From Polyangiaceae bacterium (GTDB taxonomy: Bacteria; Myxococcota_A; Polyangia; Polyangiales; Polyangiaceae): a stretch of DNA of 64,000 bases. Below the pieces are notes generated by a model that saw nothing but the letters and a program-made list of their open reading frames with translations, made no database searches and had not been told where the DNA came from. This document shows positions 4,023 to 43,733 of this stretch, one piece after another. Each line of letters opens with the position of its first letter. Positions within the stretch are counted from its first letter, which is position 1. The position numbers and the translations under genes are program-made. The stretch covers positions 1 to 64,000 of the forward strand of contig JADLFU010000037.1 in NCBI GenBank assembly GCA_020849655.1. The letters are read 5' to 3'.

Positions 4023-6197
4023 ATGCTGCAGGCTGGCGAGCTCGTCGAACGGGTCAAGGCGTACCACCCCGGCGCAGACCTCGGCCTGATCAAGAAGGCC
4101 TACGATTTCTCGCACCGCGCGCACGACGGACAGACGCGCAAGAGCGGAGATCCGTACTTCATCCACCCGGTGTCGGTCGCGACGATCATCACCGATCTGC
4201 GCCTCGACACCGCGAGCATCTGCGCGGGCCTCCTGCACGACACCGTCGAGGACACGACGGCCACCCTCGACGAGATCGGCCGCGAGTTCGGCGCGGAGGT
4301 CGCCGATCTCGTCGACGGCGTCACGAAGCTCACGAAGATCGAGTACACGTCCAAGGCCGACCGGCAGGCGGAGAACTTCCGCAAGATGGTCGTGGCGATG
4401 GCGCGCGACATCCGCGTGCTGCTCGTGAAGCTCTGCGACCGGCTCGACAACATGAGGACGCTCGAGCACATGTCGGGCGAGGCGCAGGAGCGAATCGCGC
4501 GCGAGACGATGGACATCTACGCGCCGCTCGCGAACCGCCTCGGCATGTCGCGCCTGAAGGCCGACCTCGAGGATCTCGCGTTCAAGCACCTCGAGCCCGA
4601 CGCGTACCGCGAGCTGTCGGCGAAGGTCGCGAAGACCCAGCGCGAGCGAGATCGCTACATCGAGGACGTCTCGCGCACCATCCAGTCGCGGCTCGCGGAG
4701 CAGGGCTTCCAGGCCGACGTCACGGGCCGCGCGAAGCACCTCTACTCCATCCGTCGCAAGATGCAGGCGCAGGGCTCGGACTTCGAGCAGGTCTACGACA
4801 TCGTCGCGTTCCGCGTCGTCGTCGAGACGGTGGCCGACTGCTACGCGGCGCTCGGCGTGATCCACTCGCGATGGACGCCGGTGCCCGGCCGCTTCAAGGA
4901 CTACATCGCGCTCCCGAAACCCAACAAATACAAGAGCCTGCACACGACGGTGATCGGCCCTGGCAGGGAGCGCATCGAGGTGCAGACGCGCACCCACGAG
5001 ATGCACCGCGTCGCCGAGCTCGGCATCGCCGCGCACTGGAAATACAAGGAGTCGAAGGCGACGAGCACGCCCGTCGGTCGCGCGGACGGCGAGAGCTTCG
5101 CGTGGCTGCGCGAGCTGATGGAGGTGCAGAAGGACCTGAAGGATCCGGCCGAGTTCCTCGAGAGCGTGAAGGTCGATCTCTTCCAGGACGAGGTCTACGT
5201 CTTCACGCCGAAGGGCGACGTGCACGTGCTGCCGCGCGGCGCGACACCGATCGATTTCGCGTACGCCATCCACTCGAAGATCGGGGACCACTGCGTCGGC
5301 GCGCGCGTCAACGGCGCCATCACGCAGCTGCGCTCCGCGCTCCACTCGGGCGACATCGTCGAGATCCTGACGAGCCCAGGCCAGCGCCCCAACAAGGACT
5401 GGCTCGAGTTCGTCAAGACGAGCCGCGCGAAGGCGCGCATCCGCAGCCTGATGCGCGGCGAGGAGCGTGATCGCAGCCTGAAGCTCGGCCGCGAGCTGCT
5501 CGAGAAGGGCCTCCACGACCGCGGCATCTCGTACTCGCGCCTGATGAAGAGCCCGGAGGAGCTGAAGAAGCTCCAGCTCGAGTTCAAGGTCCAGACGGTC
5601 GAGGAGCTGCTGACGCAGATCGGCTACGGCAAGCTGCCCGCGGCCGACGTCGCGTCCTCGCTCGTCCCCGAGAGCACGCCCGGCGAGCGGGAGGCGCCGC
5701 CCCCGACGCTCCGCGAGGGGCGCATCGAGAGCTTGATGCGCAAGGTGACCGGCAAGGACGACCGCGTCATCCGGCTGTCCGGCATCGACGATCTGCTCGT
5801 GCGCTACGCGGGGTGCTGCAACCCCATCCTCGGCGACGAGATCGTGGGGTTCATCACGCGCGGCCGCGGCATCACGGTGCACAAGCGCGACTGCGCGAAG
5901 GCGTTCGACAGCGGTGATCCGGAGCGCCGCGTCGAGATCCAGTGGGACGCGAAGGCGCGCCTCGAGCGCCCCGTGAAGCTGAAGATCACGACCGCGAATC
6001 GCCTCGGCATGATCGGCGTCCTCGGGCAGACGTTCCAGACCAAGGGGATCAACGTCAGCGAGGCGCTGTGCCGCGCCGGCGACGACGGGCGCGCCGTCAA
6101 CTACTTCACGTTCACCATCGGCGGCGTGCCGGAGCTGCGCACGCTGATGGCCGCGCTCCGCAAGGTGCCCGGCGTCGTCTCCGTGGAGCGGACGTGA
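4023..6197 (+). CDS. rel: Bifunctional (p)ppGpp synthetase/hydrolase Rel
   Basis: A 724-aa long RSH protein that makes and degrades the alarmone (p)ppGpp in the stringent response. The hydrolase HD domain keeps the catalytic motif GLLHDTVEDT (residues about 69-78). The synthetase domain has YDIVAFRVVV and GRFKDYIALPKPNKYKSLHT; the RFKD form of its charged motif is the one found in bifunctional enzymes rather than in synthetase-only RelA. A TGS domain (VYVFTPKGDVHVLPRGATP) and a C-terminal ACT domain (from about residue 640) follow. The ATG start leaves a 58-nt gap after the MFS gene. The stop overlaps the next gene's GTG by 4 nt. Confidence 0.96.
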   Translation: MLQAGELVERVKAYHPGADLGLIKKAYDFSHRAHDGQTRKSGDPYFIHPVSVATIITDLRLDTASICAGLLHDTVEDTTATLDEIGREFGAEVADLVDGVTKLTKIEYTSKADRQAENFRKMVVAMARDIRVLLVKLCDRLDNMRTLEHMSGEAQERIARETMDIYAPLANRLGMSRLKADLEDLAFKHLEPDAYRELSAKVAKTQRERDRYIEDVSRTIQSRLAEQGFQADVTGRAKHLYSIRRKMQAQGSDFEQVYDIVAFRVVVETVADCYAALGVIHSRWTPVPGRFKDYIALPKPNKYKSLHTTVIGPGRERIEVQTRTHEMHRVAELGIAAHWKYKESKATSTPVGRADGESFAWLRELMEVQKDLKDPAEFLESVKVDLFQDEVYVFTPKGDVHVLPRGATPIDFAYAIHSKIGDHCVGARVNGAITQLRSALHSGDIVEILTSPGQRPNKDWLEFVKTSRAKARIRSLMRGEERDRSLKLGRELLEKGLHDRGISYSRLMKSPEELKKLQLEFKVQTVEELLTQIGYGKLPAADVASSLVPESTPGEREAPPPTLREGRIESLMRKVTGKDDRVIRLSGIDDLLVRYAGCCNPILGDEIVGFITRGRGITVHKRDCAKAFDSGDPERRVEIQWDAKARLERPVKLKITTANRLGMIGVLGQTFQTKGINVSEALCRAGDDGRAVNYFTFTIGGVPELRTLMAALRKVPGVVSVERT

Positions 6198-6892
6198 GGC
6201 TCGTCGCCCGTGCCCTCGCGTGCGCGGCGCTCTCGTCCTGGACGCTCGCGGCGTGCGGCGGCGATGACTCGAAGCCCCCTCCCCTCACCGCCAACCCCGA
6301 CGCCGTGCAGACGGACCCGACACAGATCGGCGGCCGCCCCGCGAAGGCGCAGAGCGCTCCGCTGCCGCGCGCCGAGTGGGGGCCCGACAAGTGCGCGTCG
6401 AAGCGCCCGGAGGGCACCGGCGCCGGCCAGCGGGTGCGCGAGATGGTGCTGCGCGACTGTGACGGCAAGGAGGTCTCGCTCGACGACTACTGCGGCGCCG
6501 CGGCGATCTGGCTGTTCATCGGGCACGGCTGGTGCCCGAACTGCAAGAAGACCGCGACGTTCGCCGACGAGATCGCGCGCGACTACGCGGACCGCGGCGT
6601 CGTCGCGGTGAACCTCCTCGGTCAGGACGCCGAGTACCACACGCCGACCGCCGAGTTCTGCCGCGCGTGGCGCGACACCTACGGCCTCTCGGACACGATC
6701 GTGCTCTTCGACTCCTACGGTGACCAGGTGAAGAGCTTCGAGAACGGCGCGACGCCCATCCAGGTGTTCATCGACGTCGACCACGACATCGCGTCCCGCA
6801 CGAACACCGCGAACCCCGCGGTCATCCGCGCCCAGATTGACGCCGCACTCGCGCGGATCCCTTTACAATCGGCGCGCGAGCGCGGAGATTGA
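6194..6892 (+). CDS. Thioredoxin-fold (TlpA/AhpC-like) lipoprotein
   Basis: A 232-aa secreted lipoprotein. The GTG start overlaps the rel stop (GTGA) and gives a signal peptide ending in the lipobox LAAC. The mature part carries a thioredoxin-like fold with the redox motif GHGWCPNCKK, then a TlpA-style core with a cis-Pro segment (GATPIQVFID). It probably acts as a periplasmic thiol-disulfide reductase or peroxiredoxin-like protein. Oddity: the only internal TTA codon sits at 6863-6865, after ALARIP, just past the end of the thioredoxin fold and ten codons before the TGA. If TTA terminates translation here, the protein is 223 aa. See the finding on TTA codons. Confidence 0.85.
   Translation: MRLVARALACAALSSWTLAACGGDDSKPPPLTANPDAVQTDPTQIGGRPAKAQSAPLPRAEWGPDKCASKRPEGTGAGQRVREMVLRDCDGKEVSLDDYCGAAAIWLFIGHGWCPNCKKTATFADEIARDYADRGVVAVNLLGQDAEYHTPTAEFCRAWRDTYGLSDTIVLFDSYGDQVKSFENGATPIQVFIDVDHDIASRTNTANPAVIRAQIDAALARIPLQSARERGD
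6863..6865 (+). other. In-frame TTA codon near the end of the thioredoxin-like gene
   Basis: One of only five in-frame TTA codons in the window. It follows the last residues of the fold (ALARIP) and precedes an eight-residue tail and TGA. Context is TTTAC. Confidence 0.9.
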
Positions 6893-33523: not shown

Positions 33524-34816
33524 ATGACCTTCAGCGCGGCCCTCCTCGCGCTGACGGGCGGAGCGCTGCCGTTCATCGTGTCGGTCGCGTACCGGGGCGC
33601 GGCCGAGGCGCGCTGGGCGATGCTCCTCATCGTCGGCGGGTTCTGGCTGCGGATGTTCGCGTGCGCGCTCGTCTCCCAGCTCAGCTTCTTCAGCCACGCC
33701 GGCGGCGGCGACTGCGGCGCGTACCTCATCTTCGGCGACTACGTCGTGAAATCGTGGCGCTCGGAGGGGCTCTACTTCGCCACCGTCGACACCCACCCGG
33801 AGCTCGCGGAGGTGCTCGGCTCGGCGACCCTGTTCGTCAACTTCATCGCGTTCATCGGGTACATCGACGGCGAGATGAACCGCTTCGGCGCGGTCTCGAT
33901 CATCGCGTTCGCGACGGCGCTGACCGCGATCAACATGCACAAGACGGCCATCGCGTTCGGCGCCCCGCCGCGGCGCGCGCTGCTCGCCGTCGGCCTCTTC
34001 TACCTCAGCCCGGGCCTGCTCTTTCACACGAGCGACACGTACAAGGACGGCTTCGTGCTGTTCTTCACGACGAACGCGCTGCTCGGGGTGTTCCGCGTGT
34101 CGCGCAGGTTCAGCCTCGCGTGGCTGCTCGCGGTCGCCGCGAGCCTGACGGGCCTCTGGTACACGCGCTTCTACTTCGTCTACATGACGATCGCGCCCCT
34201 GTCGGTCAGCCTGCTCGGGCTGCGCAGCAAGTCGATGCTGCGCATCCTCTCGGGCGTCGTCGTGCTCTCGGTGGCGGCGATCCTCGGCCTCGCGTACCTC
34301 GGAAAGAACCTCGCGTCGTTCCAGGAGCGGGCCGCGCAGACGTACGAGTCGGCGACGTCGGTCGAGGTGCGCGACTGGAACGAGAAGGGCGGCTCGGGCG
34401 TCGACTTCGACGACGGCGGCGATCCGTTCGCGAAGCTCCCGCAGAAGATCGCGTACACGCTGCTCAGCCCGTTCCCGTGGACGGGGGGATCGTTCGGCCT
34501 GCAGGTCGGGAAGTTCGACGCGCTCCTGATCTACTACCTCCTCTACCGGAGCTTCTTCTCGGCGAAGCGGCTGCTGCGCGACGATCCGCCGCTCCTGTTC
34601 ATGTTCCTCGTGTTCATCGTCCCGTCGGTGGTCGCGTACGCGATGACGATGGCGAACATCGGGCTCATCCTCCGGCAGCGGCTACCCATCATCGCCATCT
34701 TGACGGTGCTCGCGTGCGTCGGGTGGGAGACGGATCTCGCCGGCGCCCGCGAGAAGAAGCGCAAGCTGCCGCCGCAGCACGCCATCCTCGAGCGCCTGCG
34801 CACGCCCGCGGAGTAG
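33524..34816 (+). CDS. Polytopic membrane protein of the polysaccharide locus
   Basis: A 430-aa protein with about ten hydrophobic segments and one large loop (residues about 255-320, rich in Asp, Glu and Gly) on one side, an arrangement seen in Wzy-type polymerases and GT-C enzymes. GGGDCGAYLIFGDYVVKSW and LFYLSPGLLFHTSDTYKDGF are notable: the second resembles a conserved FxSE/DTYKD-type region of uncharacterised EpsG/Wzy relatives. It is divergent from the ligase gene (142 bp between, nothing else recognised) and ends 1 nt before convergent pth. Confidence 0.65.
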   Translation: MTFSAALLALTGGALPFIVSVAYRGAAEARWAMLLIVGGFWLRMFACALVSQLSFFSHAGGGDCGAYLIFGDYVVKSWRSEGLYFATVDTHPELAEVLGSATLFVNFIAFIGYIDGEMNRFGAVSIIAFATALTAINMHKTAIAFGAPPRRALLAVGLFYLSPGLLFHTSDTYKDGFVLFFTTNALLGVFRVSRRFSLAWLLAVAASLTGLWYTRFYFVYMTIAPLSVSLLGLRSKSMLRILSGVVVLSVAAILGLAYLGKNLASFQERAAQTYESATSVEVRDWNEKGGSGVDFDDGGDPFAKLPQKIAYTLLSPFPWTGGSFGLQVGKFDALLIYYLLYRSFFSAKRLLRDDPPLLFMFLVFIVPSVVAYAMTMANIGLILRQRLPIIAILTVLACVGWETDLAGAREKKRKLPPQHAILERLRTPAE

Positions 34817-34817
34817 G

Positions 34818-35402
34818 TCAGCCGGGCGGGGCGGGCCGCCGCGTGTTGTGGAGGTTCATCGCGCGCGTCGCGCCGAGGCGCAGCGCGTCCTCGACGGCGC
34901 CGGCGGCGCGGCCGACGACCTCGCCGAGCGCGCGCGACTCCTCCGCCGAGAACGCCGAGAGCACCCACGCGGCCGTGTCGCCGCGAAAGCCCGCGGGGGG
35001 CTTGCCGACGCCCACGCGGACGCGGACAAAGTCCGCCCCGAGCCGTGCGATCAGGTCCCGGAGCCCGTTGTGGCCCGCGTGCCCGCCGCCCTGCTTGATC
35101 CGCACGTCGCCGAACGGCAGATCGAGCTCGTCGTGCACGACGAGGACGTCGGGCGTCGCGACCTTGAAGAACGCCGCGGCCGGCTGCGCGGCCTGACCCG
35201 AGAGGTTCATGTACGTGAGCGGCTTCAGCAGCGCGACGTCCTGGTCGGCGACGCGCGCGCGGGCGAGCTCCGCGGAGAACTTCCGCGACCACGCGGCCGC
35301 GCCGGCCCGCCGCGCGAGCTCGTCGACGACGAGGAACCCCGCGTTGTGCCGCGTGGACTCGTACTCGCGCCCCGGGTTGCCAAGTCCGACGAGGAGGTGC
35401 AT
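34818..35402 (-). CDS. pth: Peptidyl-tRNA hydrolase
   Basis: A 194-aa enzyme that frees tRNA from peptidyl-tRNA dropped by the ribosome. Family signature: LVGLGNPGREYESTRHNAGF with the catalytic His, VVHDELDLPFGDVRIKQGGG with the Asp, and HNGLRDLIARLG with the Asn. Length is normal from the ATG at 35402, so that is the likely start. However the reading frame is open upstream through rplY: no stop codon separates the two genes, only a TTA at 35472-35474, and a terminator-like hairpin lies between them. Confidence 0.93.
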   Translation of the reverse strand: MHLLVGLGNPGREYESTRHNAGFLVVDELARRAGAAAWSRKFSAELARARVADQDVALLKPLTYMNLSGQAAQPAAAFFKVATPDVLVVHDELDLPFGDVRIKQGGGHAGHNGLRDLIARLGADFVRVRVGVGKPPAGFRGDTAAWVLSAFSAEESRALGEVVGRAAGAVEDALRLGATRAMNLHNTRRPAPPG

Positions 35403-35419
35403 CGCTCTCTCTACAAAAC

Positions 35420-35454
35420 GCGCGAGGCCCGACGACGCTCGCCGGGCCTCGCGC
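35420..35454 (-). terminator. Intrinsic terminator-like hairpin between rplY and pth
   Basis: Perfect 12-bp inverted repeat (35420-35431 with 35443-35454, arm GCGCGAGGCCCG) around an 11-nt loop; on the minus strand it is followed by GTTTTG. It marks the region after rplY as noncoding although the reading frame stays open through it. Confidence 0.7.
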
Positions 35455-35471
35455 CACGCGCCAGCGGCGCG

Positions 35472-35474
35472 TAA
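35472..35474 (-). other. In-frame TTA codon at the expected end of rplY
   Basis: Directly after the Lys-rich tail (KKDEKKK) of ribosomal protein L25, before the terminator hairpin. No TAA/TAG/TGA is present before pth. Context GTTAC. Confidence 0.9.
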
Positions 35475-36128
35475 CTTCTTCTTCTCGTCCTTCTTCGCCG
35501 GGGCGGCCTTCTCGTCCTTCTTGGCGGCGGCGCCGGCGGCGGGCGCGGCGGCGGCCTCCTCCTCGCGCTCCTTCTCGGGCGCGACGATGTTGATGACCGT
35601 CTGGTCGTCGGCGAGGCGCACCTTGACGCCGGCGGGGAGCTTCAGCGCGGAGGCCTTGACGGCCTCGTTCAGCCCGAGCGCGGTGATGTCGTGATCGATG
35701 CTGACCGGGATCGCCTCGGGGGCGCAGCGGATCGGCAGCGATCGGTACACCATGCGCAGCGTGCCGCCGGCCGTGACGCCCGCGGCCTTGCCGCTCGCCG
35801 TCAGCGGGACGACGACGTCGACGGGCTCGCCGAGCTTCACGTGCACGAAGTCCGCGTGGAACAGCTCGCGCGTCAGCGGGTGATAGGTGTGCTCGCGGAG
35901 CATCACCGTCATCTGCTTCTTGCCGTCGACGTCGAGCTCGATGACGGCGTTCTTGCCGTGCGTGCTCTTCAGCGCGAGCGCGATGGCCTTCGGCGCGACC
36001 GCGAGCGACTCGGCGGCCTCTCCCTTGCTGTAGGCGACGGCAGGGATGAGCCCCTCGCGGCGCAGGCGCTTCGCCGGGCTCTTGCCGTGGTCGTTGCGGG
36101 TGTGTGCTTGGATCTTGATGATTTCCAT
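35472..36128 (-). CDS. rplY: Ribosomal protein L25 (CTC form), end marked by TTA
   Basis: A 218-aa large-subunit protein of the long CTC/TL5 type that binds 5S rRNA. An N-terminal L25 domain (MEIIKIQAHTRNDHGKSPAK; GLIPAVAYSKG) precedes the beta-rich C-terminal domain (HADFVHVKLGEPVDVVVPLT; GGTLRMVYRSLPIRCAPEAI). It ends in the usual flexible Ala/Lys/Glu tail (about residues 185-218). No canonical stop follows: the codon after the tail is TTA, then 24 open codons spanning a terminator-like hairpin lead in frame into pth. Either TTA ends the protein, or an L25-Pth fusion is made. rplY-pth order is the common one in bacteria. Confidence 0.92.
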
Positions 36129-40101: not shown

Positions 40102-41955
<1,854 letters not shown>

Positions 41956-41958
<3 letters not shown>

Positions 41959-42696
41959 CCTCCGGGCGCGGGCGAGCAGCGCGGCGACCTCGACCGCGCC
42001 GCGCAGCTGACCTCCGAGGCCGAGCTTGGAGCCGCCCGCGTCTCGCCACGCGTCGAGCGGCACCTCGAGCATCCGAGACGCCGGCACCGCGGGCCCCTCG
42101 CCGAGTCGTCCGAGCAGCCGCCCGAGCAGCTCGACGTCGAACGCCCAGCGCGAGTCGAACGGCCGCGCGAGCGCCGCGTCGAGCGCGGGCGTGCGCCGCA
42201 GCCACTTCGCGCCGCACTGCGTGTCGTACACCGGCACCCCGAGGGTCCACGACGCGAGCGTGGCGAACACCCGCCCGCCCAGGTGGCGCGCCGGCCTGCG
42301 CTCGATGTCTGCCCCGAGGCGCGCGACGCGCGAGCCGAGCACGGCGTCGACGTCCGCGCGCGCCAGGAGCACGTCGAGGAGGCGCAGGAGCTCCTCTGCC
42401 GAGGTCGCGAAGTCCGCGTCCGCGTACCCGACGACCCTCGCGCCATCGCGGAGCGCGGCCGCGAGCCCCGCGCGGACGGCCTCCGCCTTGCCGTGGTTGC
42501 GAGCGAGCGCGAGCGCGCGAGCTCCTTCGACGTCGCGCGCGAGCCGCGCGAGGAGCGCGCCGGTGCCGTCGGTCGAGCCGTCATCGACGAGGACGACGTC
42601 GACGCGCTCCGCGAGGTCGGAGATCTCTCCCAGCGGCAGACGCGCCGCCTCGTCGAAGCAGGGGATGACGATCGCGGGCCGACGCGCGCGGCTCAC
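41956..42696 (-). CDS. GT2-family glycosyltransferase (dolichyl-phosphate-glucosyltransferase-like)
   Basis: A 246-aa cytoplasmic-face glycosyltransferase. Motifs: IVIPCFDEAARLP, VDVVLVDDGSTDGTGAL, VGYADADFATSAEELLRLL (DxD), and DAVLGSRVARLGADIERRPA then GVPVYDTQCGAKWLRR, the pattern of ALG5/DPM1-like enzymes that load a sugar on a polyprenyl phosphate. No membrane segment at the C-terminus. GTG start overlaps the M74-like peptidase stop (GTGA). Stop is TAA, one of only two in the window, and exactly complementary to the TTA ending typA. Confidence 0.88.
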
Positions 42697-43733
42697 GGAT
42701 CTTCCACGTCGTGAGCCAGCGCCGTGACGGGCGCCCGGCCCTTCGGGCCGAGGAACCGCAGGTGCACGTGGTCCGTGTGCCATGGCAGGTGCATCATCAC
42801 GCCGCCCTCGGGCTGGAGCTGCGCGGCGGCGTGCCTCGGGATGACGTGGTGGCGCGCGAGGCGATCGGCCGCCTTCGCGAGCGGCTCGAGGAACTCCTCG
42901 TCGAGGAAGACCCTGTCGAGCACCCGGCGCGCGGCGAGCCGCCCGACCAGGTACGCGAGCCGGGTCGCGTCGAACGCCCGCGCCGTGCCCCGCCGGCACA
43001 CCGCGGTGAAGTGGCCTTCGCCGCGGCGCGGATCGGGTGAGACGATCTTCTCGCAGTGATCGCGCTGCAGCGACGGCTCCACGGTCGACGGGATCGCGAT
43101 GTCGACGTCCCGGCCGCCGTCGTGGCTCACGTGGCGCGGGTTGCCGACGTCGAGCGCGGGGCGGCGGCCGTCCCACTGCGTGATGTCGACGACGCCGATC
43201 GGATCGCGACGGAAGCGCGCGCGCGTGTCGCGGAACCCCTCGCGCCGGAACGCGACGACGTCGGGGCGCGCGAACTGGTACCGGTTGGGGCGCTCGAGCA
43301 GGTAGCCGTCGTCGCGCACGAGCGGCGACGGCATCCCGACGAGCTCGACGACGTCGCGAGGGAGCACCGGCTCGGGCGACGCCCGCCTCACGACGAGGCG
43401 CACGTCCGACGACACCTCGAGGCTCAGCCCGAGCGTGCGCACGCCGTCCGGGACGATCAGCGACGCCGCGCGCGGCAGGCGGCCGTCCTCCTCGAGCGCG
43501 TCGAACACGCGCGCGTCCTGGACGGCGAAATGGCTGAGGCCGTCCGGCTCGCCGACCAGCAGCACCGTCGTCAGCGCGCCCGGCTCGACCTCCACGTCGA
43601 CGCGCCACTGTCCGGCGGGGATGGCGAGGTCCGCCGCGTCGCGCGAGACCCGGAGCGCCGCCCGCGCCCCCGACGACCACGCGAGCGCCGCCGAGGCCGC
43701 GAGCACTCCGAGCAGGGCGCGAGAGCTTCTCAT
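42693..43733 (-). CDS. M74 (MepA-like) LAS-type murein endopeptidase
   Basis: A 346-aa exported protein (signal SAALAWSSGARA). The C-terminal half has the LAS zinc motifs: NPRHVSHDGGRDVDIAIP (HxxxxxxD) and WHTDHVHLRFLG (HxxHxH), as in penicillin-insensitive murein endopeptidase MepA. It should cut D-Ala-mDAP cross-links. The N-terminal half is beta-rich and not part of MepA. Divergent from pcnB with 104 bp between, which contains a T-rich stretch (43802-43808) but no clear promoter. Confidence 0.8.
   Translation of the reverse strand: MRSSRALLGVLAASAALAWSSGARAALRVSRDAADLAIPAGQWRVDVEVEPGALTTVLLVGEPDGLSHFAVQDARVFDALEEDGRLPRAASLIVPDGVRTLGLSLEVSSDVRLVVRRASPEPVLPRDVVELVGMPSPLVRDDGYLLERPNRYQFARPDVVAFRREGFRDTRARFRRDPIGVVDITQWDGRRPALDVGNPRHVSHDGGRDVDIAIPSTVEPSLQRDHCEKIVSPDPRRGEGHFTAVCRRGTARAFDATRLAYLVGRLAARRVLDRVFLDEEFLEPLAKAADRLARHHVIPRHAAAQLQPEGGVMMHLPWHTDHVHLRFLGPKGRAPVTALAHDVEDP

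Follow-up and report, generated by a model that had tools for sequence, protein, structure and literature searches.

Two described genes carry a terminator-like hairpin within their open reading frame (ORF), arfA of E. coli and brfA of B. subtilis. In both, the mRNA loses its stop codon through termination inside the gene (or through RNase III cleavage), and trans-translation controls the resulting nonstop message (PMC6881298; PMC8012679). The rplY-pth locus that we describe here, from a 64,000-nucleotide stretch of a Polyangiaceae genome (the window), resembles them in that a putative terminator lies before the stop codon inside an ORF. The likeness is one of layout only: arfA and brfA are short genes for rescue factors, with proven termination and trans-translation control, whereas here the hairpin sits between two housekeeping domains. 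The locus can also be compared with the ordinary rplY-pth pair, which in other genera of the family and of the order consists of the same genes in the same order and on the same strand, with an L25 tail that ends in KK or KKK. Several of these relatives also have a hairpin followed by a T-run in the spacer. The relatives stop L25 before the hairpin, whereas the window species has a TTA codon there and a frame that stays open into pth.

Reading of the minus strand revealed one uninterrupted ORF of 436 aa (36128–34818), from ATG to TGA, that spans both the bL25 and the Pth domains (Table 1). The open frame from rplY through a hairpin into pth that the initial annotation had described is therefore borne out, as is its count of 24 open codons between the two parts, provided that TTA is included (23 sense codons follow it). 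Pfam analysis of the ORF placed Ribosomal_L25p at residues 6-94 (PF01386, E = 3.5e-21) and Ribosomal_TL5_C at residues 103-184 (PF14693, E = 2.8e-19), as in bL25 of the TL5/CTC type, and Pept_tRNA_hydro at residues 245-427 (PF01195, 214 bits against a cut-off of 27, covering profile positions 1-182 of 183). The NCBIfam models were likewise well above their cut-offs, with 138.9 bits versus 73.1 for TIGR00731 on the L25 part and 196.9 bits versus 100 for TIGR00447 on the Pth part. The L25 motifs are intact, and on alignment to solved Pth structures the motifs of the putative catalytic site (GLGNPG, TRHN, MN.SG, HDELD, and GHNGL) are all there. An AlphaFold model of the fusion (mean pLDDT 89.7, pTM 0.52) predicts both domains with confidence and the linker, at about residues 190-241, with low confidence. 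With the Pth motifs intact and two confident domains in the model, neither domain appears to be obviously disturbed in the fusion. The component parts of the ORF are an ordinary bL25 and an ordinary Pth.

Table 1. Features of the rplY-pth locus (positions in the window)
Feature	Position	Strand	Basis
rplY part: bL25 (Ribosomal_L25p and TL5 C-terminal domain), Ala/Lys-rich tail ending KKK, 218 codons	35475..36128	-	Pfam, NCBIfam, motifs
TTA codon at the position of the relatives' L25 stop codon	35472..35474	-	Junction comparison; rare codon
Linker, 24 codons (TTA included), LRAAGAWREARRASSGLARFVERA, former rplY-pth spacer	35403..35474	-	ORF reading, junction comparison
Hairpin, 16 pairs, loop 3, intrinsic-terminator-like	35420..35454	-	Folding, conservation, rarity count
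T-run GTTTTGTA 3' of the hairpin; +1-frame TAG at the place of the sister species' TGA stop	35412..35419	-	Sister comparison
pth part: peptidyl-tRNA hydrolase, in-frame ATG 35402-35400, TGA 34820-34818	34818..35402	-	Pfam, NCBIfam, motifs

A search of the genome, a draft of 307 contigs, for a second copy of pth found none. The cell's Pth of the PF01195 family must therefore come from the 436-aa ORF, either as the fusion itself or as a product begun at the internal ATG. Initiation of pth further upstream was ruled out, since the linker holds no ATG, GTG, or TTG in frame. We also ruled out a pseudogene, on the grounds that both domains are full length and that this pth is the only copy found. 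As a coding possibility, the L25-Pth fusion that had been put forward as an alternative thus holds, with one intact frame, both domains intact, and no other pth found. No report of such a fusion was found in the part of the literature that was covered. On its far side, pth (-) meets a convergent membrane-protein ORF (33524-34816, +), and the two stops are separated by one base (34814-34820). This neighbor is kept in the sister species (below), where its protein is 85% identical.

What is remarkable at this locus is the missing stop after KKK, and the open spacer itself is not. We used the fused protein as a query against the genomes of the family, the order, and the class. Of 318 class genomes, 308 had a match, and all other full-length matches, among the matches listed, have the stop. 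The retrieved relatives always end L25 before the pth start or overlapping it. Among 114 distinct junctions that were read, KK stands directly before the L25 stop in 96, and most of these have AAG AAG AAG and then TAA, TAG, or TGA. Within the family (97 junctions, one per genome), only the window genome is open into pth. The TTA that follows KKK in the window, immediately after position 35475, differs from TAA and from TGA by a single base. It is also a very rare codon: the window has 3 occurrences among 19,686 codons, and the frequency over all control regions taken together is 0.13 per 1000. Such rarity is as expected if the codon is a former stop and not a regular leucine codon, and its simple source is a TAA or TGA that mutated. 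The proposal that UUA stops L25 was not upheld and we ruled it out: TTA codes for Leu in table 11, there is no hint of another code, and the ancestral stop is what changed. The only other called genes of the window with a TTA codon are those at 6194-6892 and 40102-42714.

The only other member of the genus compared, the sister species G001 (CAUJFL010000299.1, MAG KLAP97), has 79% DNA identity to the window across 6.8 kb that surround the locus. Its junction (locus L056, 3204-3280) reads AAG AAG AAG TTA, after which the L25 frame continues LSRSSRASEGPARRASRVL. The identical codon makes a miscalled base at TTA very unlikely, and we rejected that reading. Because this genus-mate was separately assembled, the two sequences indicate that the stop loss is real and genus-wide, the genus being sampled by two genomes. 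In the sister species the L25 extension is 19 codons long and ends at a TGA that leaves 5 nt to the pth ATG, a possible restart arrangement. Several indels separate the spacers of the two species, and the amino acids of the linker differ from those of the sister's extension, with no conservation. The fusion is thus not conserved: no relative has the fused protein, and the only other genus member examined is unfused despite the common stop loss. The check that the initial annotation had proposed, for relatives with the fused protein and a conserved linker, had a mixed outcome: the genus-mate has KKK-TTA in common with the window but not the linker. It counts against the fusion reading that the full fusion is found in one genome and that there the two frames are brought together by net indels within a GC-rich hairpin.

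How surprising is such a join once the stop has been lost? In the spacers of relatives, stops occur at 0.6 per 100 codons, which gives 24 open codons a probability of about 0.86, and a spacer that is both open and in frame a probability of about 0.86 × 1/3. Given the stop loss, the in-frame join is therefore unsurprising and needs no special cause. The in-frame spacers of relatives have a flat GC content by codon position (0.73/0.71/0.73, versus 0.71/0.46/0.84 for pth), and the three frames of these spacers hold 8, 5, and 5 stops, with no depletion. These data suggest that relatives probably leave the spacer untranslated. General stop-codon readthrough from rplY to pth across the family was ruled out because the in-frame spacers carry no coding signature. 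The initial annotation had held that the spacer is not meant to be translated; this stands for the ancestral state, in that relatives stop earlier, the spacers of in-frame relatives look noncoding, and the hairpin has been kept at the RNA level.

As a side observation, rplY and pth of the family lie in one frame at 54 of 79 nonoverlapping junctions (L002-L133; gaps of 0 to 156 nt), whereas in control DNA 34 of 90 closely spaced gene pairs do so. In sister contrasts, 19 of 34 length differences were divisible by three (P of about 0.006 against 1/3 and 0.024 against the control rate). At rplU-rpmA, a second single-junction control, roughly 40 of about 100 genomes were in frame by hand count. The excess is modest, the spacers have no coding signature, and shared ancestry is the first suspect.

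The hairpin itself has 12 uninterrupted Watson-Crick pairs counted from its base, so the perfect 12-bp hairpin with a T-run noted in the initial annotation is confirmed as part of a longer, 16-pair stem. At a threshold of 10 pairs, it is the sole such hairpin in the 64-kb window and 1 of 12 in 464 kb (the window together with control sequence from its family and order), and this scarcity argues that it is more than chance. Its layout is that of a predicted intrinsic (rho-independent) terminator, a GC-rich stem-loop followed by a T-run, here a short one. Ten inner pairs of the stem persist between the window and the sister species; in one of them both bases have changed (C-G to A-U), and another is retained as a wobble. 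A spacer hairpin with a T-run also follows the L25 stop in several relatives (G009, G056, G031, G004, and G129). On the basis of its conservation in the sister species and its presence in the spacers of other genera, the hairpin probably began as an intercistronic element, either a terminator or an attenuator, and only later came to lie within an ORF. Given its conservation, termination there may still act.

Duplex energies indicate that the Shine-Dalgarno sequence of L25 is good in both species (-6.6 kcal/mol) and that of pth is weak (-3.5 kcal/mol in the window species and -2.7 in the sister). Across the family, shuffled sequence scores as well as the pth starts do, with a median of -2.5 for both. 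The contrast between the two genes suggests that translation of pth probably relies on ribosomes arriving from rplY. We infer that in the relatives these ribosomes probably restart at pth, and that in the window species they probably elongate directly into it.

The reading that we prefer, to which we assign a probability of about two in three, is an ancestral stop loss followed by read-through transcripts that would encode an L25-Pth fusion, perhaps with some separate Pth. A single substitution, from TAA or TGA to TTA, would have removed the rplY stop in the ancestor of the genus, and the L25 frame would then have extended through the old spacer with its terminator-like hairpin. In the window species, the length of the spacer came to be in register with pth, so that each transcript that reads through the hairpin would encode a 436-aa L25-linker-Pth protein. 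A ribosome close behind RNA polymerase would cover the 5' arm of the hairpin and favor read-through (transcription-translation coupling). Translating ribosomes would thus tend to block formation of the hairpin here. Transcripts ending at the T-run would lack a stop codon and would be nonstop L25 messages in need of ribosome rescue. The genome has a tmRNA gene, and tmRNA would rescue the ribosomes on these messages. Some free Pth may arise from the internal ATG. To judge from the sequence, the fusion would be produced and would carry the Pth activity of the cell.

Alternatively, two proteins may be made in practice, with termination or a cut of the mRNA at the hairpin, L25 released via ribosome rescue, and Pth started independently at its ATG, on read-through transcripts or on transcripts from a promoter of its own. 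The strength of the hairpin with its T-run, the compensatory C-G to A-U pair with which the sister keeps it, the tmRNA gene, and the in-frame ATG at the pth start position all fit this arrangement. We nevertheless consider it unlikely, given that a sigma-70-like promoter for pth was looked for at the locus and none was found, that the Shine-Dalgarno sequence at pth is weak, and that trans-translation would tag and degrade the nonstop L25.

Could the join be an assembly or sequencing error? In this case, the stop loss would be real, but the true L25 would end at the TAG just past the T-run, as in the sister species. In the +1 frame, CGC GTT TTG TAG of the window lines up exactly with CGC GTT TTG TGA of the sister, so that one wrong base could create a false fusion. 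GC-rich hairpins are hard to sequence, and the draft genome (307 contigs) has an estimated contamination of 4%. However, about 6.2 kb of coding sequence in five ORFs, at the locus and next to it, aligns to the sister with no frameshift outside the spacer, which by the rule of three limits the chance of an indel error in a 60-nt spacer to about 3% at most. In addition, the hairpin arms are perfectly paired, and with several spacer indels between the species, a genuine change of frame would come easily. An indel error is in our judgment improbable.

Pth is essential in model bacteria, which speaks against a selected arfA/brfA-like device, in which the in-ORF terminator would yield nonstop rplY messages and the L25/Pth output would sense ribosome-rescue capacity. 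Such an in-ORF switch, by which terminated nonstop L25 would be destroyed by trans-translation and read-through would give a ribosome-tethered Pth, with an output that tracks the rescue state, is very improbable: by analogy it draws on the in-ORF hairpins under trans-translation control in arfA and brfA (PMC6881298; PMC8012679), and in both genus members the first stop of the lengthened L25 frame comes after the T-run or adjoins it, but the genomes are two only, this Pth is the only copy found, and the linker and the stop position are without sign of selection.

Returning to the L25-Pth fusion, the protein, if made, would put a peptidyl-tRNA hydrolase on the ribosome via L25. It would then be a natural test of whether Pth acts near the ribosome that drops peptidyl-tRNA. 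A terminator-like hairpin within an ORF for two housekeeping proteins makes transcription-translation coupling testable at this locus. The species pair represents a gene fusion caught midway, with the stop lost in both species and the frame joined in one.
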